The notes beneath the pieces are model-generated. The model was not told where the DNA came from. It saw nothing but the letters and a program-made list of their open reading frames with translations, and did no database searches. Positions 14,152 to 43,395 of a DNA stretch of 64,000 nucleotides are shown here, piece by piece. The stretch is taken from assembly GCF_011405515.1 (NCBI RefSeq), contig NZ_AP022671.1:1116001-1180000 (forward strand). The letters are read 5' to 3'. Made by a program: the position numbers and the translations under genes. The stretch is from Nitrospira sp. KM1. GTDB lineage: Bacteria > Nitrospirota > Nitrospiria > Nitrospirales > Nitrospiraceae. The stretch's first letter is position 1. Every line of letters begins with the position of its first letter.

Positions 14152-14160
14152 CAACGCATC

Positions 14161-21475: not shown

Positions 21476-21532
21476 TGGAGTGCCCTTTCGGACGATGCAC
21501 GCATTGCGCGTCATAAGAGATGGGGGAAGAAT

Positions 21533-22902: not shown

Positions 22903-23053
22903 AAACCATATACCGAAAATCATTTCATGCTCCGGGTCGCGCCACCATTTCTTCAGGCATTGAGTGGCCGGACAGTCTAGCCGCGGCATCCACCGTTGGC
23001 ACCCTCAGAACGATCGACACACCCGGCAATAAGAACGCATCCAAATATCCCTC

Positions 23054-23084
23054 CGACAAATTGTCTAATCCGGACTATCTGTCT
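23054..23084. promoter_or_regulatory. Paired GGACA-N3-TGTCC enhancer sites before the Gly/Pro-rich gene
   Basis: CGACAAATTGTCT (centre 23060) and GGACTATCTGTCT (centre 23078) are 13-bp dyads exactly 18 bp apart, 89 and 71 bp upstream of the -24 element at 23149. Confidence 0.65.
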
Positions 23085-23147
23085 CCTTATTTTTCAGATT
23101 TTTCAGTTTTGAATATCGGTTTACCTAGGGAATCATATGAGACCCGG

Positions 23148-23163
23148 AGGTATCCTTTTTGCT
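23148..23163 (+). promoter_or_regulatory. Sigma-54 promoter candidate of the Gly/Pro-rich gene
   Basis: AGGTATCCTTTTTGCT: GG at 23149-23150, ten bases, GC at 23161-23162 within TTGCT. The start codon follows about 48 nt after the expected transcription start. Confidence 0.65.
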
Positions 23164-23221
23164 CACTTCGCCTACGGAAGTGGGAATAATGGCCCCTTAA
23201 CAGAGGAGGAGCAGCAGCACA

Positions 23222-23629
23222 ATGAACTGGAGACTGATTCTGACAGGAACAGCCGTGACTGCTTTATGTTTCGGCGCTCCGGCAGGGACTACTTTCCTCG
23301 CTCATGCACAATCTGGGGCTGCACAATCCGACAAATCACAGCAACCGGGATTGCCGAGATCAGGAGATACAACGAGTCCGTCAGGCATCGACCGCAATAC
23401 CATCCCGCATGCCGGGCCCAGCGAAAAACATTCGACGCCGGGTAGCGGAGGGAATATGGGAAGCACTGGAACGTCCGGCACCCCGAGCCCCGTTCCCCCG
23501 GTTCCAGGGCACGGTGCCCCAATGCCAGGGCACGGCACTCCAGGGTCTCCTGGTGCGGGAAGCCCCTCCATGGGTGGTTCGACTGGTGGCTCGGGTGCCG
23601 GCGGTGCAGCGGGAGGAGGCGGCCGGTAA
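23222..23629 (+). CDS. Secreted Gly/Pro/Ser-rich protein
   Basis: A 135-aa exported protein. The signal peptide is about 1-29 (ending LAHA), and the rest is low-complexity with PGHGAPMPGHGTPGSPG-type repeats and a glycine-only tail. AGGAGG precedes the ATG. It is probably disordered in the periplasm or outside the cell, possibly in the cell wall or matrix. A sigma-54 promoter with paired dyads precedes it. Confidence 0.75.
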   Translation: MNWRLILTGTAVTALCFGAPAGTTFLAHAQSGAAQSDKSQQPGLPRSGDTTSPSGIDRNTIPHAGPSEKHSTPGSGGNMGSTGTSGTPSPVPPVPGHGAPMPGHGTPGSPGAGSPSMGGSTGGSGAGGAAGGGGR

Positions 23630-23741
23630 AATCAACAATGCCTCGCGTACGATTTCAGGAAGTTTTCGATGATTCGATGACTCTTGCGTAAGACAACCGG
23701 TATTAGATTACTCGGAGCGATGGGCATCTGAAAGGGAGCCG

Positions 23742-24911: not shown

Positions 24912-25001
24912 CGGACGGCAGGAATGGCAACAGCTAGAATATTCTTTCGTGCCTCTTGTGCTGAAGGAATAGTCTAGATTGGAAGCGAGTCTGCTTAGGC
25001 C

Positions 25002-25181
25002 TTACCCGCTGCTGCCTTGACAGGCAGGGTGCTCGCACGGACAGTGCCCCCCTGGCGGGGGGGCCAGGGCCTGCTCGCATTCATCACTGCAGTACGAACT
25101 ATTTCCCCGGACCTCGCAGGTGCAAGCCTGATGGCCGCAGTGTTTCGGATAGTCGATCGTGGGCGCAGGTTTTGATTTCAT
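25002..25181 (-). CDS. Metallothionein (SmtA/BmtA type), 59 aa
   Basis: A small cysteine-rich metal-binding protein of 59 aa, just under common length cut-offs. Eight cysteines sit at 15, 20, 22, 31, 35, 47, 49 and 54, arranged as HCGHQACTC, SYCSDEC and CPCEHPAC. This matches the order of bacterial metallothioneins that bind Zn(II), Cd(II) or Cu(I), and histidines 14, 17, 46 and 51 may add ligands. It starts 34 nt after the pal stop on the same strand, so it is probably co-transcribed with pal. A very GC-rich inverted stretch (25047-25066) lies inside it. The ribosome site is weak. Confidence 0.82.
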   Translation of the reverse strand: MKSKPAPTIDYPKHCGHQACTCEVRGNSSYCSDECEQALAPPPGGHCPCEHPACQGSSG

Positions 25182-25215
25182 GATGCCGTCACGATGCGCC
25201 CCCGAGGCGAGGCAT

Positions 25216-25800
25216 TCAGGGTTTCACCACCAGATGACCACGGCGATTCTGCTGATGGCATGACTCTGAATGCGTGACGCAAAAAGGGCGTTCCTTGCCA
25301 TAGGATACGACCGTCACACGCTCCGGTTTCACTCCCATTTCCATCAAGTAATTTCGCACCGCCTTGGCGCGCTTTTCGGCAAGCACGAAGTTGTATGTTG
25401 AACTGCCTCGCTCGTCACAGTGACCTTCCACTTTGACCTGGGCCAAGCCGTGCGCGCGAAGCCACTCGGCATCGCGATTCAGGATTTCCCGGCCCTCCTC
25501 ATTGATGGCCCAACTGTCGTAGCCGAAGAATACGTCGCGCATGCCGGCGGCCGTCGTGGCGTTCTGCTCGGCGCGGATTTCATCAAGCTGACGTTTCGCG
25601 CGCGAAGGATCGGCCTTCGCCAGAATGGGATAGCCGTCCAGGCGATCCACTCCGTTGGAGGACGCAGAAGACAGATCGTTGGCCGTCGGCGGACGGGACA
25701 TATTGCCGCCGGATTGCATGGTTTTTCCCGCGCAGGCGGACATCGACAGGGCGACGAACCCAGCTGCGAATAGGCATCCAATGCGAGAAACGGTCTTCAT
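25216..25800 (-). CDS. pal: Peptidoglycan-associated lipoprotein, OmpA family
   Basis: A 194-aa lipoprotein (signal ending MSAC23) with a C-terminal OmpA/Pal peptidoglycan-binding domain (about 85-194). The Pal hallmarks are VEGHCDERGSSTYN and LAEKRAKAVRNYLMEMGV. Pal links the outer membrane to the wall as part of the Tol-Pal system, but the tolQRAB genes are not here, so it may be a paralogue. It lies 19 nt after the RHH gene and 34 nt before the metallothionein gene, all on the minus strand. The cysteine-containing end (CVTHSESCHQQNRRG) is usual. Confidence 0.88.
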   Translation of the reverse strand: MKTVSRIGCLFAAGFVALSMSACAGKTMQSGGNMSRPPTANDLSSASSNGVDRLDGYPILAKADPSRAKRQLDEIRAEQNATTAAGMRDVFFGYDSWAINEEGREILNRDAEWLRAHGLAQVKVEGHCDERGSSTYNFVLAEKRAKAVRNYLMEMGVKPERVTVVSYGKERPFCVTHSESCHQQNRRGHLVVKP

Positions 25801-25819
25801 GACTTCCCTCCTTATTCAG

Positions 25820-26014
25820 TTATGACTTCCGGCGAGGCAAGAGCCGTTTGCGTTCCAGACCCTGAACGTGAACTTCGCAAAGTTCCTGAACGTACTCGCC
25901 CAATGTTTTCTGATGCAGAGCGGCCGCTGCTTTGAGTTTGGCCAAGAGCTGACGCGGCATCCCCCTGACAAACAAAACTGCGGCATCATTATCTAGCTTC
26001 GCTAGCCTAGCCAT
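25820..26014 (-). CDS. Ribbon-helix-helix-like small DNA-binding protein
   Basis: A 64-aa protein with a beta strand (AAVLFVRGMP), two helices (RQLLAKLKAAAALHQKTLGEYVQELCEVHVQ) and a basic tail (ERKRLLPRRKS), like Arc/CopG-type regulators. The ATG at 26014 falls at the predicted transcription start of a good promoter, so the message is probably leaderless. It lies 19 nt before pal. Confidence 0.65.
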   Translation of the reverse strand: MARLAKLDNDAAVLFVRGMPRQLLAKLKAAAALHQKTLGEYVQELCEVHVQGLERKRLLPRRKS

Positions 26015-26021
26015 CAGTGCT

Positions 26022-26050
26022 AGCATATACAAGCTTATTGGGTGAGTCAA
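26022..26050 (-). promoter_or_regulatory. Sigma-70 promoter giving a leaderless message
   Basis: Minus strand TTGACT, 17 bp, TATGCT. The expected start point, 7 nt downstream, coincides with the ATG at 26014. Confidence 0.6.
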
Positions 26051-26402
26051 CGCTGTTTGCAATTCTTGAACTGCTCGCACTGTTGTCTCAAGCACACCAT
26101 GAGCATGCGCTGGCCTCAGCACGTCATTCCGCCAGGCCCATGGATCTCCGGCTCGTGAACTGGTTACCAAATTCTCCCCCCCCGCCTCGCCTAGGATCTA
26201 CTCGTCAGGCTGCTCTTGCGCAAGGACCGTTCTGAGTTTACCGTGGTGACAGCGTTGACTGGTCGAATTTGAACGGCAAAAACATCCGGTGTTGGGTAAA
26301 TTTCACTTCCGTCGGGAAGGGGCTGGCAGAAGAAGCGAGCCTTGTATTAGGATCGAGGCATATTCCGCTTTGATTGTCTCAGGGAGACGGTAACGCTACC
26401 GT

Positions 26403-26849
26403 ATGATGATCGTGGATGAACAACCGCCGATTCACACTCGCACGGCCGACTCCCAGACGTCCGGCCATAACGCTCGATTGATCCGAGTGCTCATCGTGGA
26501 CGATCACAAATTGATCCGGGAAGGACTCCGCAGCATTGCCAGTTCGTTCAAAGAGCTTGAAGTCGTCGGCGATGCAGACAGCGGGGAGCGTGCGGTTCAA
26601 TTGACCCGCGAGTTGAAGCCGGATGTCGTGCTCATGGATATCGGAATGCCTGGTATGAGCGGCATCGAGGCGACCCGCTACATTAAATCGGAATTTCCTC
26701 AGATCGCAGTCGTCGGTTTATCCGTGCATGAGGAAATGGAAGTGGTACAGGAGATGGCTGCGGCGGGCATCGAAGGATATCTCGCGAAAGAAAACGCCGC
26801 GGATCATTTATATCAGGCCATTCAATCGGCCGTGCGGACGCTTCGGTAA
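26403..26849 (+). CDS. Receiver-only response regulator
   Basis: A 148-aa protein holding one receiver domain (about 28-140) with VLIVDDHKLIREGLRSI, the phosphorylated aspartate in VVLMDIGMPGMSGIEATR and a lysine in GYLAKENAADHLY. No helix-turn-helix follows, so it is not itself a NarL-type DNA binder. Its sequence closely resembles the C-terminal receiver of the hybrid kinase at 30671-33214, suggesting related ancestry or a shared kinase. A 24-residue N-terminal tail precedes the domain. Confidence 0.9.
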   Translation: MMIVDEQPPIHTRTADSQTSGHNARLIRVLIVDDHKLIREGLRSIASSFKELEVVGDADSGERAVQLTRELKPDVVLMDIGMPGMSGIEATRYIKSEFPQIAVVGLSVHEEMEVVQEMAAAGIEGYLAKENAADHLYQAIQSAVRTLR

Positions 26850-26980
26850 CGGCCTTCTCCATCTTTCACGATGGAGACCCGTCTCGGCGACGTCTTCGCC
26901 TCTTATCTCACGTTCATTTCCACTCATTCGAACCCAAGCGTTCACGGAACACCTTCACGTTCTCGCCAGGTCCCGCCAGC

Positions 26981-27181
26981 TTATATTAGACCCGAACGGT
27001 CATGCGGTGTTTTGGGAAGATGACGGCACGACCACGCTCCATAGGCCAGTTGCAGAATCTGCATATGATTTTCGATCGACAACTGTTCCTCGATATGCAA
27101 TCTGGGGTCTTCCTCCAGCAATTTGGCCAGATCTCTGGTGGATTTTTGAAATTCTGTCAATACGTGTTGTAACGGCGTCAT
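26981..27181 (-). CDS. Small helical protein of unknown function
   Basis: A 66-aa protein (MTPLQHVLTEFQKSTRDLAK...) rich in leucine and acidic residues, predicted helical. AAGGAG lies 6 nt before the ATG at 27181, which supports the gene. No family is recognised. Confidence 0.6.
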   Translation of the reverse strand: MTPLQHVLTEFQKSTRDLAKLLEEDPRLHIEEQLSIENHMQILQLAYGAWSCRHLPKTPHDRSGLI

Positions 27182-27229
27182 CCTCAGCTCCTTCAAATTT
27201 AAAGCTTGCCACATGGGTGACGGTCCATG

Positions 27230-27568
27230 TCAGACACTGAGCAACGAAGATCGCGAGCCTGAAGGAGGAGGGTGAAATACGCCGGACTGCCGAAGATATC
27301 GGTACTCCGAGTCTATGGAGAAGACGATCGCCGAACCGTGGACCATGAGAATCAGCGGGCGTTGACCGTCAATGAGCGCAAACGCTTCTTGTATGGATTT
27401 ACCGAATTCGTCGCCCGAGTCCGCGAGATCTCCGAATGAGATCGACACACCCACGATGAACAATACGATCGCGATGCTCAGCGAGCCGACAATGATCACG
27501 GACCATCCCGAGCGAGCGTTCCGAATCGCGCGAGCACTCCAGGCCATGGTACGGTCGAACAACAGCAT
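27230..27568 (-). CDS. Possible single-span membrane protein
   Basis: A 112-aa frame with one clear membrane helix at about 24-46 (VIIVGSLSIAIVLFIVGVSI). The C-terminal third is less protein-like and there is no obvious ribosome site, so this may be a chance frame or a decayed gene. Confidence 0.4.
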   Translation of the reverse strand: MLLFDRTMAWSARAIRNARSGWSVIIVGSLSIAIVLFIVGVSISFGDLADSGDEFGKSIQEAFALIDGQRPLILMVHGSAIVFSIDSEYRYLRQSGVFHPPPSGSRSSLLSV

Positions 27569-27709
27569 TGGAGTGTATTGCCAAATAGCTGAGTCTTATT
27601 CAAGGCCGCGATGAGCCTGTAGTACAGCCGACGACAAACATTGGCGGGAACCAGGACTCTGAGGTAATGAGGCGATCTTACAGAACCGTCTGTGATCATC
27701 AGAGGCATG

Positions 27710-28234
27710 TTACCTTGGTTTTTTGGTCGTCTCCGCACTTCGTTCGAGGGCCTCGAGCCGCAAGTGCAGTTCTTCAATTCGGATCAACAACATACTCAAT
27801 GCATCATCCATTGCCTCGAGCTTCAACGCCATGGTCGAAAGATCGGGACCCTGATGTTCATTGGAATCAGGATACCCGCTCTGCGCAGCCCACTGTTCCA
27901 ACCTTCTCGTTCTATGTTCAAGGCTTTCAGAACGAACTTGCATATCCTCTTGTTTGCCTTGAAGGTCGTACGCCTGATGCTGGGTGGTTTCCAGCTGCCC
28001 CCTCAGACTCGGCAACTCCTCTTCTTTAATGACTGACAATTCCTGATGTTGCCTCGCTCTCGTGCGCATGAGTTCTTCATTGGATTGCTGAATTTTCTGA
28101 TGAAGCGTATCCACTCCGGGTGGAGATACGGTCTGCCGCTCTCCGGAGCAGTTGCTAAAAACCGCAATGAACAGGACAAAGATCAGCGATCGAAGGGGCG
28201 CTCCGTTCATCACGGAGACGGATAATTGGACCAT
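27710..28234 (-). CDS. Coiled-coil exported protein, possibly a lipoprotein
   Basis: A 174-aa protein with a hydrophobic N-terminal signal (PLRSLIFVLFIAVFSNC) and long heptad-rich helices (ELMRTRARQHQELSVIKEEEL; ALKLEAMDDALSMLLIRIEEL). The lipobox is poor. The ATG starts one base after the stop of the PRC-barrel gene, so the two are translationally coupled. Function unknown; a role in envelope structure fits the operon. Confidence 0.7.
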   Translation of the reverse strand: MVQLSVSVMNGAPLRSLIFVLFIAVFSNCSGERQTVSPPGVDTLHQKIQQSNEELMRTRARQHQELSVIKEEELPSLRGQLETTQHQAYDLQGKQEDMQVRSESLEHRTRRLEQWAAQSGYPDSNEHQGPDLSTMALKLEAMDDALSMLLIRIEELHLRLEALERSAETTKKPR

Positions 28235-28235
28235 G

Positions 28236-28721
28236 TTATCGGTTTAGACGGACGCGGGATTCATGTTTTCGGACCGGAACATCATAAAACTGATAAATCA
28301 CGACTTCCTGCTGGCTGAGATCCGGCCAATTATTCTTATCAAACCCAGGAGCATTCTTGAGATCTTTCTTGCTGACGTCCAAGAGGAGATATTGACCGCC
28401 CTGGTCCAGCTCGAATGCCTCCCAAGGAACTGCGAAGTATTTGTCACCGATTCCAGCGAACCCGCCGAAGTCGAGCACGGCGTAATCCACCCCTCCTTGC
28501 TCCGGGTCGATCACGAGATCCTTGATGGTTCCCAGCGAGGCACGGTCGAGACCCTGCACTTTCATCCCCAACAGGTCGCTCGCCTTCAATACTCCGCTTT
28601 TATCTTTTGCTGATACCGGGAGAGCGCTCAGGGCAAGTAGAATCACTATCATCAGGAGTCGTGCCGTACGATCTATGAAACATCCGTCCCAAGGTCTCTG
28701 CCTTCTATTCCATCGATCCAT
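28236..28721 (-). CDS. Exported PRC-barrel domain protein
   Basis: A 161-aa protein with a signal peptide (about 20-38, MIVILLALSALPVSA) and a PRC-barrel domain (about 45-135, LLGMKVQGLDRASLGTIKDLVIDPEQGGVDYAVLDFGG and YFAVPWEAFELD). PRC barrels are small beta-barrels found in envelope and stress proteins of bacteria. It is the middle gene of a three-gene minus-strand operon with a DUF1328 protein upstream and a coiled-coil protein downstream. A second PRC protein lies at 29294. Confidence 0.85.
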   Translation of the reverse strand: MDRWNRRQRPWDGCFIDRTARLLMIVILLALSALPVSAKDKSGVLKASDLLGMKVQGLDRASLGTIKDLVIDPEQGGVDYAVLDFGGFAGIGDKYFAVPWEAFELDQGGQYLLLDVSKKDLKNAPGFDKNNWPDLSQQEVVIYQFYDVPVRKHESRVRLNR

Positions 28722-28747
28722 TAGTGCCGCTCCTCCATAGCCTCTTG

Positions 28748-28927
28748 CTATCTTTCCCCAAGCTTGCGTTCGAGTGAAACCGCCAAAATGAGCACAATGA
28801 AAGCAACGCCTAAGAACATATAGAAAAGCACCTTGGCTATTTCAGTTGCCCCCACGGCAATGTCGCCGAATCCAAATGCAGCGGCCACAATGGCAATTCC
28901 GAAAAAGATCACCGACCATCGGAGCAT
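28748..28927 (-). CDS. DUF1328-type small membrane protein, 59 aa
   Basis: A 59-aa two-helix membrane protein starting [20 protein letters not shown], a clear match to the DUF1328/YtjA pattern (MLRWALIFFVIALIAAVFGF-like, then AKxLFxxFLxxF). AGGAGGG precedes the ATG at 28927. In other bacteria members are stress- or sigma-factor-induced. It leads the operon with the PRC-barrel protein and is under 60 aa, hence easily missed. Confidence 0.85.
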
Positions 28928-28982
28928 TATAATGCCCTCCTGTGACTAAGTGCTATGCACTCAATTTGGTATGGATAACTGA

Positions 28983-29162
28983 TCACGAGCGTTTCGAAGG
29001 GACCTTAGCGCCCTTGCGTCTGGCTTCCGACAAGCCTATCGCGACTGCCTGTTTCCTGCTTGTGACCTTCTTCCCACTTCTTCCACTTTTTAAAGTTCCT
29101 GATTTCTTTTTGTGCATCGCACGTCTGACAGATTTTTGAGCTCTCTTGCCATAGCGCGGCAT
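28983..29162 (-). CDS. DUF6496-type small basic protein, 59 aa
   Basis: A 59-aa, very basic protein (MPRYGKRAQKSVRRAMHKKK, then GTLKSGRSGKKVTSRKQAVA and IGLSEARRKGAKVP). The SGTLKSGRSGKKVTSRKQAxAIGLSEAR signature is characteristic of the DUF6496 family, often found in stress loci. GGGAGG precedes the ATG at 29162. It probably binds nucleic acid because of its charge, but no function is known. Confidence 0.85.
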   Translation of the reverse strand: MPRYGKRAQKSVRRAMHKKKSGTLKSGRSGKKVTSRKQAVAIGLSEARRKGAKVPSKRS

Positions 29163-29293
29163 AGAACCTCCCTTGAAAACGACAACGCATGTCCGTTTCG
29201 TTGTTCCCGGCGACGGAGGCTGCCAACGTTAAGCAGCCTCCGGATGAGGAGCACAACCAGTACATGCTCCTCTTCTTGGGACAATGTCTCCTA

Positions 29294-29962
29294 TTACTTT
29301 CCACCTTCAAATTGCGGTGCTTCTCCCTTTGGTAATGCTCGTGGGCCGCTCGGTCCAGCTCCACCCGCTTTGTCTTCACCCTGCGAACCACCTGCTGCCG
29401 GCTCATCAGTTACCCCAAGACCTCTATGCTCCATTTTCGACTCACGTTCACGGATGTTTTTGAGTTCATCCTCGAATACTTTCTTCACATCCGGCGACGT
29501 GTCGGCGGCGGCCACGCTGGGATTCAGTTGCTCCTTGGGTATATTCAGCTGAACCTGGCCCTTCTCCTTGTCCACTTTGAAATTGCTCCAGGGAAACGCC
29601 TGATACTGGCCGCTGTGGCCGATCTCGATCATCGCATATTCAATGCGTTTTGTTTCAGAATCCATGATCACGCTCTTCAGCTGCCCCAGTTCTTCCCCCT
29701 TCTGGCCCACGACTTTGTCGCCCACCAGCGAGCTCTCGACCTCCACCTTCTTGCCGCGGGCCACGGGCAACACGGTATATTTGCTCGGGACCCCCGTATC
29801 CCCCGCCGAGTTCGTAATGTTCGTCGACCCCGGGGATGTCTTTCCCCGTTGTTGCTCACGCTGATCGGCTGATGAATCCGCTCCGACCACTGCCGGTTGC
29901 AGCGGCCACGCCATCAACATGAACGCGCCCACGGCACTCAAGACACAAGTTCTGCTTTTCAT
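29294..29962 (-). CDS. Exported PRC-barrel domain protein
   Basis: A 222-aa protein with a signal peptide (about 1-28), a PRC-barrel domain (about 75-150, SSLVGDKVVGQKGEELGQLKSVIMDSETKRIEYAMIEIG and AFPWSNFKVD) and a disordered, glycine- and proline-rich tail. It is a distant paralogue of the protein at 28236-28721. A sigma-54 promoter and paired dyads lie upstream, so it is probably induced by an enhancer-binding protein. The gene stands alone and is followed by the DUF6496 gene. Confidence 0.85.
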   Translation of the reverse strand: MKSRTCVLSAVGAFMLMAWPLQPAVVGADSSADQREQQRGKTSPGSTNITNSAGDTGVPSKYTVLPVARGKKVEVESSLVGDKVVGQKGEELGQLKSVIMDSETKRIEYAMIEIGHSGQYQAFPWSNFKVDKEKGQVQLNIPKEQLNPSVAAADTSPDVKKVFEDELKNIRERESKMEHRGLGVTDEPAAGGSQGEDKAGGAGPSGPRALPKGEAPQFEGGK

Positions 29963-30028
29963 AACCCCTCCCTCGTTCTAAAAGTGTGTTCCCACGAAAT
30001 GACTGACGATGTAGTTAAAACGGTCTTG

Positions 30029-30044
30029 TGCAAGGAGAAGGCCG
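30029..30044 (-). promoter_or_regulatory. Sigma-54 promoter of the PRC-barrel gene
   Basis: Minus strand CGGCCTTCTCCTTGCA: GG at 30042-30043, ten bases, GC at 30030-30031 within TTGCA. The leader is about 56 nt. Confidence 0.72.
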
Positions 30045-30120
30045 AAGAGTTGACAACGCGGGTTTTGAAACGTTCGTAATCACTTACATGGACGTCGATT
30101 CACAAAATGAATCTTGTTGC

Positions 30121-30152
30121 CGGACAAATTGTCCGAGCAGGACAACTTGTCG
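30121..30152. promoter_or_regulatory. Paired GGACA-N3-TGTCC enhancer sites
   Basis: CGGACAAATTGTCCG (30121-30135) is a perfect 15-bp palindrome and GGACAACTTGTCG (30140-30152) a near-perfect one. Their centres are 18 bp apart. They lie 86 and 104 bp from the -24 element at 30042 and between two divergent sigma-54 promoters. Confidence 0.75.
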
Positions 30153-30222
30153 ATAAAGTCGTATGCAAAAATTAAACAACCGTTTCAGTTCCTCATTAGG
30201 ATCCGCGGTGTCTTTTCTGCCT

Positions 30223-30235
30223 GGACAAATTGCCT
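30223..30235. promoter_or_regulatory. Single GGACA-type dyad near the CV_2116-like gene
   Basis: GGACAAATTGCCT, centre 84 bp upstream of the -24 element at 30313-30314. Confidence 0.5.
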
Positions 30236-30311
30236 CTGTGATCGCCTTGGGCGATCAGGCTCATCAATTTCCAGTGCCGCAATCAAAAAACGGTTAACAT
30301 GCAGCGGCAAT

Positions 30312-30327
30312 GGGCTCACTCTTTGCA
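30312..30327 (+). promoter_or_regulatory. Sigma-54 promoter of the CV_2116-like gene
   Basis: GGGCTCACTCTTTGCA: GG at 30313-30314, ten bases, GC at 30325-30326 within TTGCA. The leader is about 64 nt. Confidence 0.7.
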
Positions 30328-30401
30328 ACAGCTTCCCACAAATATAGAAACTCGTTCACACCGTGATACTCAGAGGCCATAACGTCTTCGTGGGAAGGGA
30401 T

Positions 30402-30638
30402 ATGAGTAGAAAACTGGAATACGGAGGATATCTCATCGAATCCGCGCCGACTCAGATCGCCGATGCGAACGCATGGAAAGTCAAGATCTACATCTCCTGG
30501 GGCGAGGGGGATAATCGGGTGACGCGAACATTTTCGTCGAACGAGGTGAGCGCAAACGAGACCGCGGCGGACGATCAGGGAATTCTCTTTGCTAAACAAG
30601 TCATCGACGGAAGCGAAAATCTACTGTCCCATGGTTGA
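30402..30638 (+). CDS. Small CV_2116-like protein, copy 3
   Basis: A 78-aa protein (MSRKLEYGGYLIESAP...) with the layout of copies 1 and 2: YGGYLI start, tryptophan in NAWKVKIYI, and the closing GILFAKQVIDG. AAGGGAT precedes the ATG at 30402. Its own sigma-54 promoter, divergent from that of the PRC gene and sharing its enhancer dyads, links it to the stress regulon. Confidence 0.7.
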   Translation: MSRKLEYGGYLIESAPTQIADANAWKVKIYISWGEGDNRVTRTFSSNEVSANETAADDQGILFAKQVIDGSENLLSHG

Positions 30639-30670
30639 TCTGATGGAAGTCTGATGAATGCGCTCTTCGC

Positions 30671-33214
30671 TCAATTTCGAATCGAGGCCGACGCCTTCGC
30701 CTGCATACCCGTTAGGATCATTTCGTACAGATAGTCTACCGCGGTCTCTTTGCTGAGAAGCGAGACGGCGCCGGCCGCCCGCATGGCGGTCTGAACGGGC
30801 TCGGCGTCATGGACCGAGAGACCAATTACGACCACCTCTGAGTGCTTCCGCTTGATCTGGCGCGTGGCTTCGATGCCGTCCATTTTGGGCATGGTGACAT
30901 CCATCAGAATCACATCCGGCAGCAATTGGCTCGCAAGAAGAACGGCATCCTCTCCATTGGCGGCCTCACCGATCACGCGGACGTCGGGATACGCTTCCAA
31001 TAGCGAGGAGAGACCTTTTCGAACCATCGCGTGATCGTCCACAAGGAGCACCCGGATCGGCGGGCGATCGGATCCGGACCCGTTGGCAAGCAGGCGATCT
31101 TCCCGTTTCGAGATGGGGCGCTCCTCCGAATCAGATACGGGGACCTGTTGCTCTAAAGGAGCGGAGACCTGATGGGTCCCGACCGCACCATGACTTTTGC
31201 CCGTCGTGATCGGCAGAACGAGCGTGGCGACCGTGCCGTTTCCAGGATCCGATTGCAAATCGAATCGCCCCCCGAGCGAGAGCATCCGCTCGCGGATGCT
31301 GAACAGTCCAAAGCCATGACCTGCTGAGTTCGTCACGCGTTCCTCGGAGGCCGTTCGCGTAGAATCAAAGCCCACGCCCCGATCCGATATTGCGATATGC
31401 AACATGCCTTCGCGCTGCTCGAGGAGAATTCCTGCGTCCTTTACCTGCGCATGCTTCACGCAATTAAAGAGAAGCTCGCGCACGCATTGAAACAACAGGA
31501 GGGCCTGGTCCTCCGGCAACCAGGAAGGATCGGCCCTGATGTCCAATGCCACCTGCAGGTTGCGTTTGGGCATATCCTGCGCCAACCATTCCAACGCCAT
31601 CGCCAGACCAAATTCGTGAAGTACGGGGGGACTCAACTGGGACACGAGCGTTCGGGTATAGGCGATGGACTTGTCGATCGACTCCTGAACATCGGCGATG
31701 ATCTTGGCGAGCATGGGACTCATCGGTTGCTGTCTCGTCTGACTCAATTTAATTCGGCTCAGGGCCAGAAGCTGCCCCAGATAGTCATGAAGCTCACCGG
31801 CCAGACGTTTTCGTTCTTTTTGTTCCGTCAAATTCAGCTCCGAGGCCAAGGCACGAAGCTGTTGTTGAGACTGCATCAGCTCCTGCGTTCGCACGTTGAC
31901 CCGTAATTCCAAATCGTCGTTCATTTCACGAAGTGCGACTTCCCCCTGCTTTCTCTCGATCAGGTCCGCCGCTTGTCGGGCCAAAATATCAAGCAGTCTG
32001 AGGGCCCGCTCCGATGGAGCGTGCGCCTCCTTCCAATGGGTTGAGATCATGCCGACGAGCTGGCCGTTCCGAGAGAAGAGCGGCGTGGTCTGAACCGAAC
32101 GAATCCCCGTCTCGCGATAGGTGTTCCTCAGTTCGTCAGGGAGCAGGATCTGGCCGATGTCAGGAATGATGCAGCGTTTGCCCGTTTGGAGCACCCTGCT
32201 GCAAACGGGCTGATCCTCTGGGCTGATCGACTCCCAGCGCTTCGCCGCCTGTGGCGTAAATCCTCGATAGCCAAGCAACTGTAAGCTGCCCTGCAAACCG
32301 GGCTGCAGGTGATACATCTGCAGGCTGGCAAAATCGGCGTGCGTCACGCCGACGGCAGCATCGAGAATCTTTTCATACAAGGCTTGGACATTGTCTTCTT
32401 GAATCAAGATGGCGCTGATGGCGTGCAGCAAGTTTGTGTCGGCCAATTCTGCTTTCAACTGCAATTCGCTGTTCCGAATCGCCACTTCGGCCTGTTTCCT
32501 GCCCGTAATATCCCGCGCGATTATCGAAGAGCCGACGACGCGGTTGAGACGGCCGCGTATGGGCGAGACAGTCAGCGAGATGTGGAGATGTGAACCGTCC
32601 TTTCGTCGTCGGATGGTTTCATAGTGTTCCAGCAGCTTCCCGCTGAGAATGCGAGACTCTGCATCTCGGAGATCCTCCGGAATGAGCCGGCTCATCGATT
32701 GACCGATCATTTCCTCCGCGGTATAGCCGAACAGACGTTCCGCACCAATATTCCAACTGGTCACAATGCCCCGAGAATCTCTGCTGATGATGGCGTCGTC
32801 GGACGATTCTACAATCGCCGCGAGGCGGCCACGTGCTTCTTCGTCCTTCTTATAATGAGTAATGTCACGGGTAAAACAGCGTGTATGGACGAACTTGCCG
32901 CGTTCCATCAGCACATTCGAGCTGATGAGTACGTAGAGGAGAGCGCCATCCTTACGACGCAGCTTCGCTTCACAATTGTGGACGGTCTCCCCCGCCTGCA
33001 ACCGTGCGAGCATATCCTCGATGAGAGGTTGATCGGCATGGAATTCTTGAATATGGTGACCGATATACTCAGCGCTGGAATACCCAAGCATGGTGAGTTC
33101 GGCCTTGTTGGCCCAAAGGATGGTGCCGTCCCATCCCACCCAATGCATGGCGACAGGGGCATTCTCAACGAAATCGCGCAGTGCGTCCGCCTTGGGTCTG
33201 TTCTGTCGGCTCAT
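30671..33214 (-). CDS. Hybrid sensor kinase: PAS-PAS-GAF-HisKA_3-HATPase-receiver
   Basis: An 847-aa soluble hybrid kinase. Two PAS domains (about 12-130 and 135-255; [34 protein letters not shown]) are followed by a GAF domain (about 275-425). A NarX/LuxR-type HisKA_3 has the phospho-histidine in [17 protein letters not shown], then comes an ATPase domain ([25 protein letters not shown]) and a C-terminal receiver ([26 protein letters not shown]). There are no membrane helices, so the signal is cytoplasmic. NarX-type kinases usually pair with NarL-type regulators; the receiver-only protein at 26403 is the nearest candidate partner. Confidence 0.92.
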
Positions 33215-33419
33215 GTGGATGCGCGAAGTTCAAACAGTCGGGAAGGAGTGGCTTGTGATGAGTGAATGTGTACTCTAACAAAAGAATCGGGCGTCTTCAA
33301 CAGACCTTCGCATTCCTTCATGCCTTCTGCGGCTCGCGTGAAATGGCACTCGCATTCTCACATGGCACGGAGTAGGATAGAGCTCCATCGCGTCCACTGC
33401 GGTGCGCGGAGAACCGCTC

Positions 33420-34151
33420 ATGCACCTGCCCTTCGTCGTCACGGTACTCGGCGTATTCATGATGACCGGTTGCGCCGAACGTGCGCTCAAGCCCCAAGAA
33501 CAGTACGCCCGAGACATGGCCGCAAAACGTGAATGGCTCCGAGGGCCAATGGTCGAGAGTTGCCGGAGTCTTCCGGGACCAGAAAGCCGGGTTGCATGCG
33601 TGATGGTGATTCAGAGAACCCTGACGAAATTGCGAGGAGACTCTCTAACACGCGAGGACCACTTCCGCATCGAACTGGCCAGAGCGAAAGGAAGCGACGA
33701 AACTATGCAACTCTGGACTCGAGCTCAACAGGAAGCGTGGCTTCGAGGACCTCGGACCAGTGCATGCAATATCGCTCCTTTTCCGGGCGAAATGAGGTGG
33801 TGTCTGGATGGCGTCCAGACCGATTTGGAAGCACTCAACGAACCCGATCATGAAGCTACGTATCCGCCTGATATCCGTGCGACCCATGCCGTCGCCCGCA
33901 TTGTGGCGCGCGAGCAGGAGCGAGCCATCCAGCAGCAGCGCGCGCATGAATTGGATCTCGCCCAATTGCAGGCCGCCGGCCATAACCTACCGGGATTTGG
34001 TATTAGCGGCGGATTCTTCGGAATCTCGACCGTTTCTCCCGTGGCTCCGGGGACACCGCTCTATCCATTAACGGCCCCAACACTGCCGCAACCCCCCGTT
34101 TCGTGCACCAGTCATCATGTCGGGGTGACCGTCCAGTCAGACTGCTACTGA
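33420..34151 (+). CDS. Lipoprotein of unknown function
   Basis: A 243-aa exported protein with lipobox MTGC18. The mature part has two WLRGP motifs (EWLRGPMVESC, AWLRGPRTSAC) followed by paired cysteines, suggesting an internal duplication of about 85 residues, and a proline-rich tail. GGAG precedes the ATG at 33420. No family is recognised. Confidence 0.75.
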   Translation: MHLPFVVTVLGVFMMTGCAERALKPQEQYARDMAAKREWLRGPMVESCRSLPGPESRVACVMVIQRTLTKLRGDSLTREDHFRIELARAKGSDETMQLWTRAQQEAWLRGPRTSACNIAPFPGEMRWCLDGVQTDLEALNEPDHEATYPPDIRATHAVARIVAREQERAIQQQRAHELDLAQLQAAGHNLPGFGISGGFFGISTVSPVAPGTPLYPLTAPTLPQPPVSCTSHHVGVTVQSDCY

Positions 34152-34228
34152 TCCAGTCTTTCCGTAGAATCAGCCACCCCTTTCCCACCGGCGGTATCCC
34201 CACAGTCACAAACAGATTATGCGCGCAG

Positions 34229-34855
34229 CTACGCCGCGCTTTTCCGCTTCCCGCCCGAAGACTTCTTTCCTGCCCCTTCGTACTTGTGAGTGAGTTTATC
34301 CCGCCGCGCAGAGACTTCTTCGGTCAGTGCTTCGGCATCGATATCCGCTTCTTCAGCCTGAGGGAACATTTCGTTCTCTTCTTCTTCAATATGATGACCG
34401 ACCAACTCGCCCAGCACTTTGAATTTTGTAGCATATCCCTTGTCTCCGACGTCCATTTTACGCAGCTCCTTAATGAGCAGCTTGACGACGTGATGCTCTT
34501 CCCGAGCCTCATCCACAAGATCTTGCTCGTCTATCACTTCAGCGATAGCGGGATAGACCAGCTCTTCCTCTAGAGCCGAATGGATTTCGAGAGCCTTTAA
34601 CACCTCCTCAGCGATGGAGGTCCGGGCACGTTTATCCCCCTCTTCAAATTTTTTGAATAGCTCTTGCACCTTGCGGTGATCGGCTTTTAATTGTTCAAAC
34701 ACTTCTCCAGACGCTTTTTCTCCATCATCATCCGATCCCTCTCCATCATCCTCATCCATCTCTTCTTCATCTTCTTCGCCTTCATCTTCATTATCGATAT
34801 CCACATCCTCTTCCATATCCGTTTCGGGCCCAGTTTGGGTTGTCTGGTTTTTCAT
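34229..34855 (-). CDS. Hemerythrin-like (HHE) domain protein with acidic N-terminus
   Basis: A 208-aa protein with a very acidic N-terminal stretch (about 10-55), a hemerythrin/HHE domain (about 58-180; QLKADHRKVQELFKKFEEGD, ALEIHSALEEELVYPAI, EEHHVVKLLI, VGHHIEEEENEMFP) and a basic tail (KKSSGGKRKSAA). The HxxxE and HHxxE ligands fit a di-iron site that could bind O2 or NO or store iron. AGGAGG lies just before the ATG at 34855. A sigma-54 promoter and several GGACA dyads precede it. Confidence 0.87.
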   Translation of the reverse strand: MKNQTTQTGPETDMEEDVDIDNEDEGEEDEEEMDEDDGEGSDDDGEKASGEVFEQLKADHRKVQELFKKFEEGDKRARTSIAEEVLKALEIHSALEEELVYPAIAEVIDEQDLVDEAREEHHVVKLLIKELRKMDVGDKGYATKFKVLGELVGHHIEEEENEMFPQAEEADIDAEALTEEVSARRDKLTHKYEGAGKKSSGGKRKSAA

Positions 34856-34912
34856 GAATTCCTCCTTGATGGGTTTGGAATTGACATCCAACCAAATTGC
34901 TGAGTTCACGTG

Positions 34913-34928
34913 TGCAAAGCAGAGACCA
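34913..34928 (-). promoter_or_regulatory. Sigma-54 promoter of the hemerythrin gene
   Basis: Minus strand TGGTCTCTGCTTTGCA: GG at 34926-34927, ten bases, GC at 34914-34915 within TTGCA. The leader is about 47 nt. Confidence 0.72.
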
Positions 34929-35001
34929 GTCTCTCTCTCTGACCCTTCTGCAATAAATCCGAGGTTTGATCAGTATGGCCAACCCGCCGGATGAAGGATC
35001 G

Positions 35002-35014
35002 GGACAGGGTGTCG
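35002..35014. promoter_or_regulatory. GGACA-N3-TGTCG dyad near the hemerythrin promoter
   Basis: GGACAGGGTGTCG, centre 82 bp upstream of the -24 element at 34926. Confidence 0.6.
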
Positions 35015-35057
35015 GAAAACAGGTTTGAGTTTGTGAATTTTGAAAGTCTTATAGGTG

Positions 35058-35088
35058 GGACAGACTGTCGAGCGGGGACATGATGCCC
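35058..35088. promoter_or_regulatory. Paired GGACA-type dyads between hemerythrin and cytochrome genes
   Basis: GGACAGACTGTCG (35058-35070) and GGACATGATGCCC (35076-35088) have centres exactly 18 bp apart, as at 30121-30152 and 23054-23084. Confidence 0.65.
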
Positions 35089-35240
35089 GAGAGATTTTAG
35101 AACTAAATTAGATGCTTAATTATTTTTGTTGGTTAAACGGCTGGGATGCACCTTCCTACCAAGATCCTACAAAAAGCACTCCCGCCGGTTTAGTCAATCT
35201 GATGCCATTCCCGTCCAGATGATTAGGTGTGGCGAACGCA

Positions 35241-35253
35241 GGACAAGATGTCG
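35241..35253. promoter_or_regulatory. GGACA-N3-TGTCG dyad upstream of the di-haem cytochrome gene
   Basis: GGACAAGATGTCG, centre 190 bp upstream of the -24 element at 35437, further than at the other loci. Confidence 0.5.
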
Positions 35254-35435
35254 AATGAAGACAAAACGCGCACACATCTAATCAAAATGATTTCTCTGAA
35301 ATTGTCGCCCTGACACGCGCCATTCGCGTTACAAGCCTTCCAATCATTCATAAACGTAGGAGGTTTTGGACTTGGCTTTTATACCTGGATTCCTGTTCGA
35401 TCTGTCAGTTTTTGGAAACGGTCACGAGAATGACG

Positions 35436-35451
35436 AGGTGCATTTTTTGCA
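35436..35451 (+). promoter_or_regulatory. Sigma-54 promoter of the di-haem cytochrome gene
   Basis: AGGTGCATTTTTTGCA: GG at 35437-35438, ten bases, GC at 35449-35450 within TTGCA. The leader would be only about 17 nt. Confidence 0.65.
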
Positions 35452-35478
35452 CTAGCCAAAATTTGGGTTAGGAAACGT

Positions 35479-36975
35479 ATGAGGTTTACCATGAGGAGCA
35501 GATATTCGGGAAACTTCGTTGCATCAGCACTTATTCTTTCCGCCACAACTATTATCACGACTATGTGGGTGAGCCTGGATTCTGCCCTTCTAGCCCAATC
35601 GACCCTTGACGCTAAAAAGGCACAGCATCAATCTTCGGGATCGGGTAATGCCGGCGCAATCGAACATGCGAAAGAAAAGGGGTTCGATGGCGTAGATTTC
35701 TCCTACGATCTCTTCGGTGCCTCTCCCGCTCAAAACGCGAATAAAGCTTTTGAACAGGTAATGAAGAAAGATGTGGCGGAGAAACCGGGGGTGATGAAAC
35801 AGCAGCACCAGCTTTTGCACGACCGTTACGATTTGAGCTGTAGGACCTTGGACGGCGTGACCATGACCAAGGGCAAACCACAGCCGATCGGTCCTACGGT
35901 GAAGCTGCCATCGGGACTTTCATGGGACCAAGTCGGAGAAATGGGTGCGGAAGATATCAGGAAAAAGAAGACCTTTCCGCCAGGGTTTGACAGGCTGCCT
36001 CATGTCAAACATGCCGTAGGAGGGCAAGTCTTCCCACACATCCAAACGAAAGAATTCCCCCGATTGGAACGGTTCGATGTGGAATTCGACCTCCCGGAAT
36101 GCATCCTCCCGGAATTCCCTCCTCCCATTTTTCTCACGACCCATCCCGAACTGGGAGACGTATCTCAAGGAGAAGTGTTGACTGCTGATAACTTTGACCG
36201 TTTATTCAGAGGCCTGATCACACCGGCCCAACTGGATGGTTTGCGAATGCTCGTCACTCAGTTTCCGCAAGAAGAGTTCAACGCGACTTCCGACAGGAAG
36301 TCTGCCAAACCGAGCCTTGGCGTCAGTTGCTTGGATTGTCATGTGAATTTCCATACCACCGGTCAATTTCATTTGAACCCTGACACCAGACCGCAGCTGG
36401 ATCGTTTGAGGTTGGATACGACCAGCCTTCGAGGCATGTTCAATCAACAAATTCACGGATCGAAACGTTCAATCCGTTCAGTTGAGGATTTTACGGAATT
36501 CGAGCAGCGCACTGCCTATTTCAACGGCGACCCTATTCGGGCCATGAAAAAAGGCATGAACATCATTGATCGTGTTCCAGTTGCGCATATGGGTCAAATA
36601 CAGAACATGATCGATTTTCCTCCAGCCCCGCATCTCGATCCGATGACGGGACGTCTCGATCGGACCAAAGCGAATTCAAAAGAAATTCAGGGAGAGGATC
36701 TCTTTTTTGGGAAAGCCAAATGCGTCGCTTGTCACCTGCCGCCGGCCTATACGGACCATCAGATGCATGACTTTCATTTGGAGCGTTTCGGCGCCACCGC
36801 TGATGGACCGATTAAGACCTTCGTGCTCCGTGGCATCAAAGATTCACCGCCATATTTTCATGACGGACGACTTCCGACGCTTGAAGATACCGTTGAATTT
36901 TTTAATGTCGTGGGGAATCTCCGCCTGAACAAGGAAGAAAAGTCGGCACTGGTTGCGTTCATGCGGGCATTATAG
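35479..36975 (+). CDS. Di-haem cytochrome c, peroxidase (MauG/CcpA)-like
   Basis: A 498-aa exported protein with a signal sequence (about 10-40) and two c-type haem motifs, CLDCH (about residue 290) and CVACH (about 415). The second half resembles the di-haem cytochrome c peroxidase family, with LRGIKDSPPYFHDGRLPTLEDTVEFFN near the end. The N-terminal 200 residues are unusual and give no match. The protein probably reduces peroxide or carries electrons in the periplasm. AGGA precedes the ATG. Confidence 0.82.
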   Translation: MRFTMRSRYSGNFVASALILSATTIITTMWVSLDSALLAQSTLDAKKAQHQSSGSGNAGAIEHAKEKGFDGVDFSYDLFGASPAQNANKAFEQVMKKDVAEKPGVMKQQHQLLHDRYDLSCRTLDGVTMTKGKPQPIGPTVKLPSGLSWDQVGEMGAEDIRKKKTFPPGFDRLPHVKHAVGGQVFPHIQTKEFPRLERFDVEFDLPECILPEFPPPIFLTTHPELGDVSQGEVLTADNFDRLFRGLITPAQLDGLRMLVTQFPQEEFNATSDRKSAKPSLGVSCLDCHVNFHTTGQFHLNPDTRPQLDRLRLDTTSLRGMFNQQIHGSKRSIRSVEDFTEFEQRTAYFNGDPIRAMKKGMNIIDRVPVAHMGQIQNMIDFPPAPHLDPMTGRLDRTKANSKEIQGEDLFFGKAKCVACHLPPAYTDHQMHDFHLERFGATADGPIKTFVLRGIKDSPPYFHDGRLPTLEDTVEFFNVVGNLRLNKEEKSALVAFMRAL

Positions 36976-39818: not shown

Positions 39819-42188
39819 CTACCCCTTCCACTTCCAATTCCGGATTTCCGGCATGTCCTCCCCATAGGTGGCGATGTATTGTTTATGCTCGATCAGTTTG
39901 TTGCGAATCGACTGTTTGACATAGTCAGCTCGCGACCCTTGGAGGGCGGCCCGATGAATCACGTCGGCGACCAAGTGGAAGCGGTCAAGGTCGTTCAACA
40001 CCGTCATGTCGAACGGTGTAGTCGTCGTCCCTTCCTCCTTGTAGCCTCTCACATGCAAATTGTGGTGATTGGCGCGCCGGTACGTCAGCCGGTGGATCAG
40101 CATGGGGTAGCCATGGAACGCGAAGATGATCGGCTTGTTGGTCGTGAATAACGAGTTGAAATCCGGATCGCTCAGCCCGTTCGGATGCTCACTGGTCGGC
40201 TGCAGCTTCATGAGATCCACCACGTTCACCACCCGGACTCTCAGATCAGGAAAATACTCGCGCAACAACGATACGGCCGCCAGCGTTTCCAGTGTCGGCA
40301 CATCCCCGCAGCAGGCCATGACCACATCCGGCTCACCATCTTGGTCGTTGCTCGCCCACTTCCAAATCCCGACACCGCTGATGCAATGCTTGATCGCCGC
40401 ATCCATATCCAGCCACTGCGGAGCGGGCTGCTTGCCGGCCACGATGACGTTGACATGCTGGCGGCTGCGCAGGCAATGGTCCGTGACCGACAGGAGGGTA
40501 TTGGCATCCGGCGGGAGATATACACGAATGACCTCGGCCTTCTTATTGACGACGTGATCGATAAATCCAGGATCCTGATGACTGAAACCGTTGTGATCCT
40601 GTCTCCACACGTGGGAGGTCAGGAGATAATTCAGCGACGCAATAGGACGTCTCCAGTCCAGATGATTGGTGACCTTCAACCACTTCGCATGCTGATTGAA
40701 CATGGAGTCCGCGATATGGATGAACGCTTCATAGCAATTGAAAAATCCGTGACGTCCTGTGAGCAGATAGCCTTCAAGCCATCCCTGGCACATGTGTTCA
40801 CTGAGGACCTCCATCACACGGCCTGCAGCCGACACGTGATCGTCGGTCTTCAGCACTTCCGCCGTGGAACAACGCTCGTCCACCTCGAACACGGCCGTCC
40901 AGCGATTGGAAGCGGTCTCATCCGGACCGAAAATTCTGAACTTGCGCGCATTCATCTTCAGAACGTCTCGGATGAACCGGCCCTGTACCCTGGTCGCTTC
41001 GGCTTCCATCGATCCCGGCTTCGGAATTGAAACCGCATAGTCTCGGAAATCCGGCAGCCGGAGTTCCTTCAAGAGCAACCCGCCATTCGCATGAGGATTG
41101 GCGCTCATGCGCCTGGTTCCGACCGGCGCCAGTTCCGCCAGTTCGGCTATCAGTCTGCCCGATGTATCGAACAACTGTTGAGGTCTGTAGGATTTCATCC
41201 ATCGTTCAAGGATACGAACATGCGACGTTTTTTCCATGTCACCCATCGGCACTTGATGCGCGCGAAAGGTGCCTTCGATCTTCTTCCCGTCGACTTCTTT
41301 CGGCCCCGTCCAGCCCTTGGGTGAGCGGAGGATAATCATGGGCCAGCGAGGACGTTGAGAAAATCCTTTGGTACGAGCGGTGGTCTGAATCGTCCGGATA
41401 TCGGCTGTCGCGTCGTCCAGCGCAGCGGCCATGGCGCGATGCATCGGCATCGGGTCATCGCCTTCAACGAATATCGGCCGGTAGCCGTACCCGTTGAACA
41501 GCGCTGTCAATTCATCCTTCGGAACACGGGCAAGCACGGTCGGACCGGCGATCTTGTATCCGTTCAAATGCAGAATCGGCAGAACGGCGCCGTCGCGGAC
41601 CGGATTGAGAAACTTATTGGAATGCCAACTCGCAGCCAGGGGGCCGGTCTCCGCCTCTCCATCCCCAACGACGGCGGCCACGATCAAATCAGGGTTGTCG
41701 AACACAGCGCCGAATGCATGGACAAGGGCATAGCCGAGTTCTCCCCCTTCGTGAATTGAGCCGGGCGTTTCCGGCGCCACATGGCTTGGTATGCCGCCGG
41801 GAAACGAAAATTGCTTGAAGAGCTTCTTCATCCCTTCTTCGTCCTGAGAGACATGCGGATACACTTCACTGTACGTCCCTTCCAGGTAGGTGTTTGCGAC
41901 AACACCCGGACCACCGTGTCCGGGACCGGCGATATACATCATGTTGAGGTCCTGAGCTTTGATGACTCGGTTTAGATGGACGTAAATAAAATTGAGTCCG
42001 GGCGTGGTACCCCAATGGCCCAGCAGCCGAGGTTTGATGTGCGCGCGCGTGAGACGCTTCTTCAACAGGGGGTTGTCGAGCAGGTAGATCTGACCGACTG
42101 AAAGATAATTCGCGGCCCGCCAATAGGCGTCCATTCTGTCGAGCAAGCCGGCGCTCATGCGTCCATCATTCTTCTTTTTTGGTTTCAT
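39819..42188 (-). CDS. xfp: Xylulose-5-phosphate/fructose-6-phosphate phosphoketolase
   Basis: A ThDP enzyme that splits xylulose-5-P or fructose-6-P with phosphate, giving acetyl phosphate. At 789 aa it is the full family length. Signatures include [35 protein letters not shown] and the ThDP-binding [20 protein letters not shown]. It starts 20 nt after acetate kinase, so the pair forms a route from sugar phosphate to acetate and ATP. In an autotroph this could overflow pentose-phosphate or Calvin-type intermediates, or serve in reverse (inference). Confidence 0.95.
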
Positions 42189-42207
42189 AGGTCTTCTTCG
42201 CTCCTGA

Positions 42208-43395
42208 TTATGATCCGATCATTGCCCATACGGTCCTGGCGATCTCCTGTTCTTCATCAGTTGGAATGACCATGATGGTCACCCGGCACCCGTCTCGCGA
42301 AATCATGCGGGCGTTCGCTTCATTTCGGGCAGCATCGATCTCCACGCCCAGAAATCCGAGTCCCGCACAGATGCGGGCTCGAATAACCGGCGAATGCTCC
42401 CCGATGCCGGCGCTAAAAACCAGCGTATCAAGTCCTCCCAACGCGGCGGCCAAAGCGCCGATCCACTTTCTTGCCTGATAACAAAAGACCTCGACAGCCT
42501 CCGCCGCTCTGGAGTCGAGGGATTCGCGCTCGAGCAGATCACGCAGGTCAGAGCTGTATTCCGACATTCCCAATAACCCGGACTCCTTATTGACCATCGC
42601 GTGAAAGCGCTCCGCGTCCATGCGTTCCGTGCGGGCCAGATAGGCAACCAGGCCGGGATCCAAATCACCTGATCGTCTGCTCATGGGCAGTCCGGAGGTC
42701 GGCGTAAATCCCATCGTCGTTTCAACGCTCTGTCCCTTCGAGACGGCGGCCATACTCGCCCCGTTTCCCAGATGAGCGAGAATGACCCGGCCTTCGCCTT
42801 TGTCCGGCGCGATCCTGGTCAACTCGTTCATCAAAAACGCGTAGGACAACCCGTGAAACCCGTAGCGCTGGACGCCCATTTCGGCATACCGTCGGGGAAT
42901 CGGGAGAATCTGGGCGATGCGCGGCATCGTACGATGGAAAGCCGTATCGAAACAGGCTACTTGAGGAGCCGAAGGAAAGCGTCGTCCGAATTCTTCTATC
43001 AGGTCGATTTCAACCGGAAGGTGCTCGGGGTCGTATGGGCCGATCCGACGCAGCTCAGTCAGCATGTCCATTGTCACGCGTGCATGGGTTCGATACGCCG
43101 GCCCACCATGGACGACTCGATGACCAACGGCAACAATGTCACCCAGATTGCCTTTGTCCTTAAGACTGTCCATAAGCGGCTCGACGCAGGCGCCGTGTGT
43201 CGGAGCATTGACGGCACGCTTTTCATTTTTCCCCGTGGTCCGGTCAGTCATGATCATGGTGCTGCCGGTGGTTCCAATCCTTTCGATCGATGCAGTTGCG
43301 AGACATTTGAGCTGTGACCCGCCCACATAAAGAGACGATTTGAGACTCGATGATCCGCCGTTCATGGTGAGAATCAAGGGTTCTTTCGTGTCCAT
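42208..43395 (-). CDS. ackA: Acetate kinase
   Basis: A 395-aa enzyme converting acetyl phosphate and ADP to acetate and ATP. Signatures include the N-terminal [26 protein letters not shown], and [20 protein letters not shown]. It is the first gene of the operon with phosphoketolase. No phosphotransacetylase is present in the window. Confidence 0.96.

Follow-up and report, generated by a model that had tools for sequence, protein, structure and literature searches.

Do two divergent genes of Nitrospira sp. KM1, one encoding a hemerythrin-domain protein and the other a di-haem c-type cytochrome, share a control region, and if so, which sigma factor and which activator would it depend on, and in response to what? 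In the stretch of DNA analyzed here (64,000 nucleotides, referred to as the window), the hemerythrin gene on the minus strand and the cytochrome gene on the plus strand are separated by a gap of 623 bp. This gap contains two outward-facing sigma-54-type promoters and four GACA-N3-TGTC dyads, of which three are perfect and the fourth has a single mismatch.

Organization of the intergenic region

The region 34913-35451 is delimited exactly by the outer edges of the two sigma-54-type elements. On its left, the coding sequence of the hemerythrin HHE-domain protein (34229-34855, minus strand; 208 aa with an acidic N-terminus; Pfam PF01814) starts at an ATG preceded by AAGGAGG, and its predicted promoter TGGTCTCTGCTTTGCA (34913-34928, minus strand) matches TGGYN7TTGCW with no mismatch. 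On its right, the predicted promoter AGGTGCATTTTTTGCA (35436-35451, plus strand), with one mismatch to the same pattern, precedes the cytochrome coding sequence (35479-36975, plus strand; 498 aa), which carries the haem motifs CLDCH and CVACH and a MauG/CCP-like C-terminal half. The dyads, which have no strand, are distributed between these promoters. The center of dyad 1 (GACAGGGTGTC, 35003-35013, perfect) is 81 bp from the GG of the hemerythrin promoter, and that of dyad 4 (GACAAGATGTC, 35242-35252, perfect) is 190 bp from the GG of the cytochrome promoter, with a lone GACA half-site at 35260, 18 bp beyond dyad 4. Dyad 2 (GACAGACTGTC, 35059-35069, perfect) and dyad 3 (GACATGATGCC, 35077-35087, one mismatch) start at 35059 and 35077, an 18-bp tandem arrangement that is characteristic of the regulon described below and that the preliminary description of this DNA does not mention. 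Dyad 3 is also part of an inverted repeat, CGGGGACATGATGCCCG (35072-35090), which could form an RNA hairpin as well; an Rfam search of the window gave no match.

Predicted sigma-54 promoters

Taken by itself, the TGGYN7TTGCW pattern shows no enrichment in the window, with 49 matches for 45.6 expected, and the promoters therefore needed testing by other means. A matrix derived from 19 other regulon promoters, which were picked by their core pattern and include two duplicated pairs, gives the hemerythrin promoter rank 2 and the cytochrome promoter rank 12 among the 127,962 positions of the window. Both promoters have the GG-N10-GC core with TTGCW at -12, and the genome encodes a single RpoN (190.9 bits). 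These promoter sequences, matrix ranks and the single RpoN gene support the proposal, already made in the preliminary description, that sigma-54 drives both genes, the promoters being predicted ones.

Dyads, tandem spacing and pairing with promoters

With at most one mismatch allowed, 41 copies of the GGACAN3TGTC motif are present in the window, compared to 16.0 (sd 5.0) in shuffled sequences, and the eight perfect GACAN3TGTC cores present in the 64 kb are all confined to 19,686-35,252. The whole genome (4,509,223 bp) contains 111 perfect cores, versus 55 for the reversed pattern; from this frequency, a hand calculation gives approximately 0.015 perfect cores expected in the 623-bp gap, where three are seen.

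The dyads are also associated with promoters. A dyad followed 31-91 nt later by GGYN7TTGC is found 23 times in the genome and once in the reversed-pattern control. The preliminary description had placed four dyads between two outward-facing promoters; the coordinates bear that layout out, and the genome-wide pairing shows that it is no local oddity. Since two promoters carry two perfect dyads each, the 23 matches correspond to 21 distinct promoters, a number that overstates the independent cases as it includes two pairs of near-identical duplicated promoters, and some pattern matches, such as locus L115, may be due to chance. At the 19 promoters of the matrix, the dyad lies 51-115 bp from the promoter; one of them, near 3318034, is detected only with a wider dyad-promoter spacing.

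The 18-bp tandem is the hallmark of the regulon. Around the 32 perfect dyads in the KM1 stretches analyzed, a second dyad, allowed up to two mismatches, is found 19 times at 18 bp, three times each at 17 and 19 bp, and at most twice at any other offset. The exact tandem (7-nt gap, at most one mismatch) occurs at 16 places in the KM1 genome and nowhere in the control. Elsewhere among 395 genomes of the phylum, one genome (G046) has two such tandems and each of the others has at most one, so the 18-bp spacing is peculiar to the KM1 genome; the tandem dyads of relatives are often spaced 19-20 bp.

Could the dyads instead be operators of an ordinary repressor or activator acting at sigma-70 promoters, with the sigma-54 matches arising by chance? 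Perfect tandem GACA-N3-TGTC pairs recur in Marinobacter, mostly as GACANNNTGTCA-N5-TGACANNNTGTC (loci L292, L295, L297, L299 and others). The similarity of these dyads would favor such operators, as 17 of the 18 Marinobacter loci checked have no sigma-54 match within 160 bp; they probably belong to a different regulator. In KM1, dyad and sigma-54 element come together far more often than in the control, and no sigma-70-type promoter was found in 34200-35600, which makes the sigma-70 explanation highly improbable. When named genomes were scanned for perfect tandem pairs, no Nitrospira was among the matches listed, which may omit near relatives.

Genes behind the sites

Three hemerythrin genes lie behind the sites, namely the 34229-34855 gene and those at 1749646 and 3248385, both on the plus strand. 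The sites also precede genes for a catalase, PRC-barrel proteins, a DUF3309 protein, a DJ-1/PfpI protein, a glyoxalase-like protein and a YflT-like protein scoring just under the Pfam cut-off, as well as a single-domain response regulator and small secreted proteins with no assigned function. As judged from their sequences, these downstream genes point to a stress-type regulon in which 34913-35451 would be one node.

Other members are found in the window. The sigma-54-type promoter at 30029-30044 (minus strand), with tandem dyads at 30123 and 30141, is predicted to drive a PRC-barrel protein (29294-29962, minus strand; PF05239). On the opposite side of these dyads, another sigma-54-type match (30312-30327, plus strand) precedes a small gene (30363-30638), and the two promoters are a possible second divergent pair. 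Elsewhere in the window, a dyad GACAAATTGTC (23055-23065, no strand) with a one-mismatch tandem partner at 23073 is followed by the sigma-54-type promoter AGGTATCCTTTTTGCT (23148-23163, plus strand), before the gene of a small secreted protein (23222-23629). The PRC-barrel gene and its sigma-54 promoter have a near-identical second copy near 3264913, and the promoter region of a secreted protein is also duplicated, at 3254674 and 3270590. Inside the stress-gene cluster, adjoining open reading frames (16315-16977, plus strand) look, from their translations, like fragments of an IS-type integrase/transposase. Next to the cluster, the genes for phosphoketolase and acetate kinase are neighbors in 39819-43395 (minus strand).

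Candidate activator

The genome contains 28 strong sigma-54 activator genes, with four weaker matches excluded. Comparison of the activators of two genomes, G046 and G115, singled out the paralogue pair L021 and L023 among several shared ones. In KM1, the L021-type candidate is an NtrC-type response regulator of 450 aa (3462241-3463590 of the KM1 genome, G000:C1) with a receiver domain, an AAA+ domain and a Fis-type HTH; a paralogue that is 85% identical is encoded at 2866708-2868051. This regulator reaches none of the NCBIfam equivalog cut-offs, the nearest model being AtoC (498 vs 714 bits).

An L021-type activator is present in 46 of the 175 genomes of the family. Ten of these 175 genomes have at least six site-plus-promoter matches, and all ten encode the activator (Fisher 7e-7, Mann-Whitney 7e-7, phylogeny being ignored in both); 36 of the 46 activator-bearing genomes have fewer than six. 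The position of the dyads was compared for two activators, the L021-type one and the NtrC-type regulator of the window itself (12691-14154, minus strand). At 21 of 30 loci, the 300 nt that follow the L021-type gene contain a perfect dyad, mostly after 13-43 nt, and in most cases this dyad has a tandem partner 18-20 bp away. In KM1, dyads are present on both flanks of the pair formed by this regulator gene and that of a 554-aa kinase. The sequence comparisons thus point to the L021-type response regulator, encoded outside the window, as the likely activator of the dyads.

The window regulator, which adjoins a histidine kinase gene, is the activator encoded closest to the cluster, and its candidacy rests on this proximity. 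It was rejected on co-occurrence and on the lack of adjacent dyads: its orthologue is missing from six of the ten site-rich genomes, including the single-contig G115, it is present in genomes devoid of sites, such as G062, and none of its 30 loci has a perfect dyad within 300 nt downstream. It also adjoins a nitrite-oxidoreductase-like gene that has its own sigma-54-type promoter. We therefore give little credence to the idea that this regulator acts at the dyads.

Nitrite oxidoreductase and nitric oxide

The nitrite-oxidoreductase-like gene (7725-12308, minus strand) is a single open reading frame of 1527 aa with PDB matches to 7b04_B and 7b04_A. Residues 24-1104 match subunit A (7b04_B) and residues 1104-1525 match subunit B (7b04_A), giving an apparent NxrA-NxrB fusion as read from the sequence; in the passages searched of PMC6606698, a fused nxrB_4/5 is found, which is not an A-B fusion. 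With this gene in the window, the genome is that of a nitrite oxidizer in kind. Its sigma-54-type promoter (12365-12380, minus strand) lies before the gene, and the NtrC-type regulator and kinase adjoin it. No perfect dyad was found near it in the scan of the 64-kb window. The link to nitrite oxidation made in the preliminary description is not supported: the gene has its own promoter and a different, disfavored activator. Sigma-54 regulators beside nxr genes are described for Nitrospira in parts of PMC6606698 and PMC7522533.

The same description had suggested a redox or nitrosative stress response. The stress theme is supported, the sites being shared with the catalase, a further two hemerythrins and additional genes of stress type; the nitrosative specificity is not supported. 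A nitric-oxide response of the NorR type would accord with the ability of hemerythrin domains to bind NO or O2. The sensor domain of NorR is other than a receiver. The candidate activator has a receiver domain and scores 308.6 bits against the NorR cut-off of 476, and the genes of the regulon are of general-stress type, so that a NorR-type response appears extremely unlikely. Nothing points to NO in particular, and neither a specific NO response nor a control link to nitrite oxidoreductase is supported.

Membership of the two genes and conservation among relatives

The two sides of the region differ in how well they fit the regulon. Hemerythrin is a well-supported member: dyad 1 lies within the 51-115 bp range from the promoter GG, and the 18-bp tandem pair is located farther up. 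On the cytochrome side, the nearest perfect dyad, which has a half-site as partner, is outside this range, so the membership of the cytochrome is less certain; the case for it is weaker, the promoter itself being good. The co-control of the two genes proposed earlier is less well supported: the operator sites are shared, but the cytochrome's nearest perfect dyad is distant and only one of its 30 orthologue loci combines a dyad with a close promoter.

The operator is not conserved at the orthologous cytochrome genes, 27 of 30 loci having no perfect dyad upstream (up to 1.3 kb), and among these loci that of KM1 is alone in combining perfect dyads with a nearby sigma-54 promoter. In two genomes (G032 and G044), a dyad is present about 1.16 kb upstream, accompanied by a promoter that is likewise more than 1 kb from the gene. 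The cytochrome gene of some relatives is immediately preceded by another gene in the same orientation. As for the hemerythrin loci, a perfect dyad is found within 600 nt in 6 of 30, two of which have a promoter as well. The genes themselves occur together: cytochrome and hemerythrin share 35 genomes, cytochrome and activator 33, and hemerythrin and activator 35 (Fisher 1e-14 to 1e-21, with phylogeny ignored). The cytochrome and activator genes lie on the same contig in 22 cases; in 10 of these, all of them from relatives and none from KM1, the two genes are at most 10 kb apart.

The out-of-range distance and the scarcity of dyads at the orthologous cytochrome loci would both be expected if only the hemerythrin belonged to the regulon, all dyads serving the minus-strand promoter, and if the cytochrome promoter were fortuitous or under another activator. 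Against this, the cytochrome promoter ranks 12th among 127,962 positions and resembles those of other members such as AAGGTGCGATTTTTGCACA, dyad 4 and the half-site are on the cytochrome side, the sigma-70-type promoter sought in the region was not found, and the cytochrome and activator genes are linked in relatives. We consider this restriction to the hemerythrin unlikely, while granting it real weight.

Predicted gene products

The hemerythrin protein matches Pfam PF01814 with 59.1 bits for a gathering score of 25.3 (E 8e-16), identifying an HHE domain, and its only PDB relative at E <0.01 is the hemerythrin HHE protein 6q09. The nearest NCBIfam model is the PA2171 persister family, NF053874 (86.2 bits, E 2e-24), below the equivalog cut-off of 190. 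PA2171 of Pseudomonas aeruginosa binds the ribosome and FtsZ and represses translation, according to portions of PMC13041383. The two proteins have the homologous hemerythrin domain in common, whereas the KM1 protein differs by its score under the equivalog cut-off, its acidic N-terminal extension and its sigma-54-type promoter.

The cytochrome matches no Pfam family. Its NCBIfam matches to MauG, MbnH and CCP are weak and miss every equivalog cut-off, and the best match in a PDB profile search is the di-haem peroxidase 1iqc (E 4e-8), with the C-terminal haem domain also matching 3o5c. Both CxxCH motifs are invariant in 12 aligned orthologues. With two c-type haem motifs and a peroxidase C-terminal haem domain, as in the bacterial di-haem cytochrome c peroxidase/MauG superfamily, the protein can be placed in this superfamily as a putative di-haem oxidoreductase of the CCP/MauG kind; unlike established members, it has no Pfam family, its best PDB matches are confined to the C-terminal part, and it stays under the equivalog cut-offs.

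Proposed mechanism

From the promoters, the dyads, their genome-wide pairing and the conserved dyad beside the regulator gene, all read from sequence, we infer how binding, activation, signal and protein functions may fit together. A signal would be sensed by the membrane histidine kinase (554 aa), which would phosphorylate the AtoC/ZraR-like NtrC-family regulator (3462241-3463590). The regulator would then bind GACA-N3-TGTC dyads, usually two at 18 bp, and its ATPase would open RNA polymerase-sigma-54 at a GG-N10-GC promoter located approximately 50-115 bp away. In the region studied here, the hemerythrin promoter would be served by dyad 1, and by the pair of dyads 2 and 3, and the cytochrome promoter by dyad 4, alone or with dyads 2 and 3 through looping. 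The hemerythrin-domain product would perhaps damp translation, as is reported for its relative PA2171. Under stress, it would be made together with catalase, envelope proteins and the product of the cytochrome gene, an exported di-haem oxidoreductase of the CCP/MauG kind. Taken together, the evidence makes it fairly probable that 34913-35451 is a bidirectional sigma-54 control region and a node of a genome-wide stress-type regulon, driven in this manner.

Comparison with known systems

In excerpts of PMC6606698 and PMC7522533, sigma-54 of Nitrospira is discussed mainly for nitrite oxidoreductase. We tentatively suggest, as a possibility with less than even prospects, that a two-component activator of NtrC type may, together with sigma-54, direct a general stress programme in this Nitrospira lineage, with hemerythrin translation-dampers, catalase, envelope proteins and a MauG-like exported haem enzyme as its products. 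The two would then fill the role that RpoS, SigB or EcfG has elsewhere, and lineages may gain or lose targets through acquisition of the tandem GACA-N3-TGTC operator. The best genome score for the RpoS model is 327.3 bits, under the cut-off of 378.7; since the genome does encode an RpoS-like sigma that falls short of the cut-off, the absence of RpoS cannot be claimed and sigma-54 may not act alone. For stress survival in nitrite oxidizers, the proposal names a specific regulator, an operator and a set of predicted targets, and it would connect one particular signalling system with hemerythrin-domain proteins that are relatives of a ribosome-binding dormancy factor.

The GlrR (QseF) regulon likewise relies on a two-component activator of the NtrC family, and its sigma-54 promoters have TGTC/GACA half-sites, the enterobacterial site being TGTC(N)10GACA (PMC4987338, in part). 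In KM1, the half-sites are in the opposite order (GACA-N3-TGTC) and in tandem at 18 bp, the targets are stress genes whereas those of GlrR are small RNAs, and the activator scores 382.9 bits with the GlrR model for a cut-off of 763. In Desulfovibrio vulgaris, sections of PMC4641369 describe a 'general stress response' sigma-54 regulon for DVU3305 and 'envelope stress' regulons for DVU3381 and DVU1419, where response-regulator activators run stress genes via sigma-54, as proposed for KM1. The strings GACA and TGTC are absent from the main text of that article. No description of the KM1 regulon was found in searches of an open-access library; the regulon is apparently new, while its kind, a sigma-54 stress regulon, is already known.
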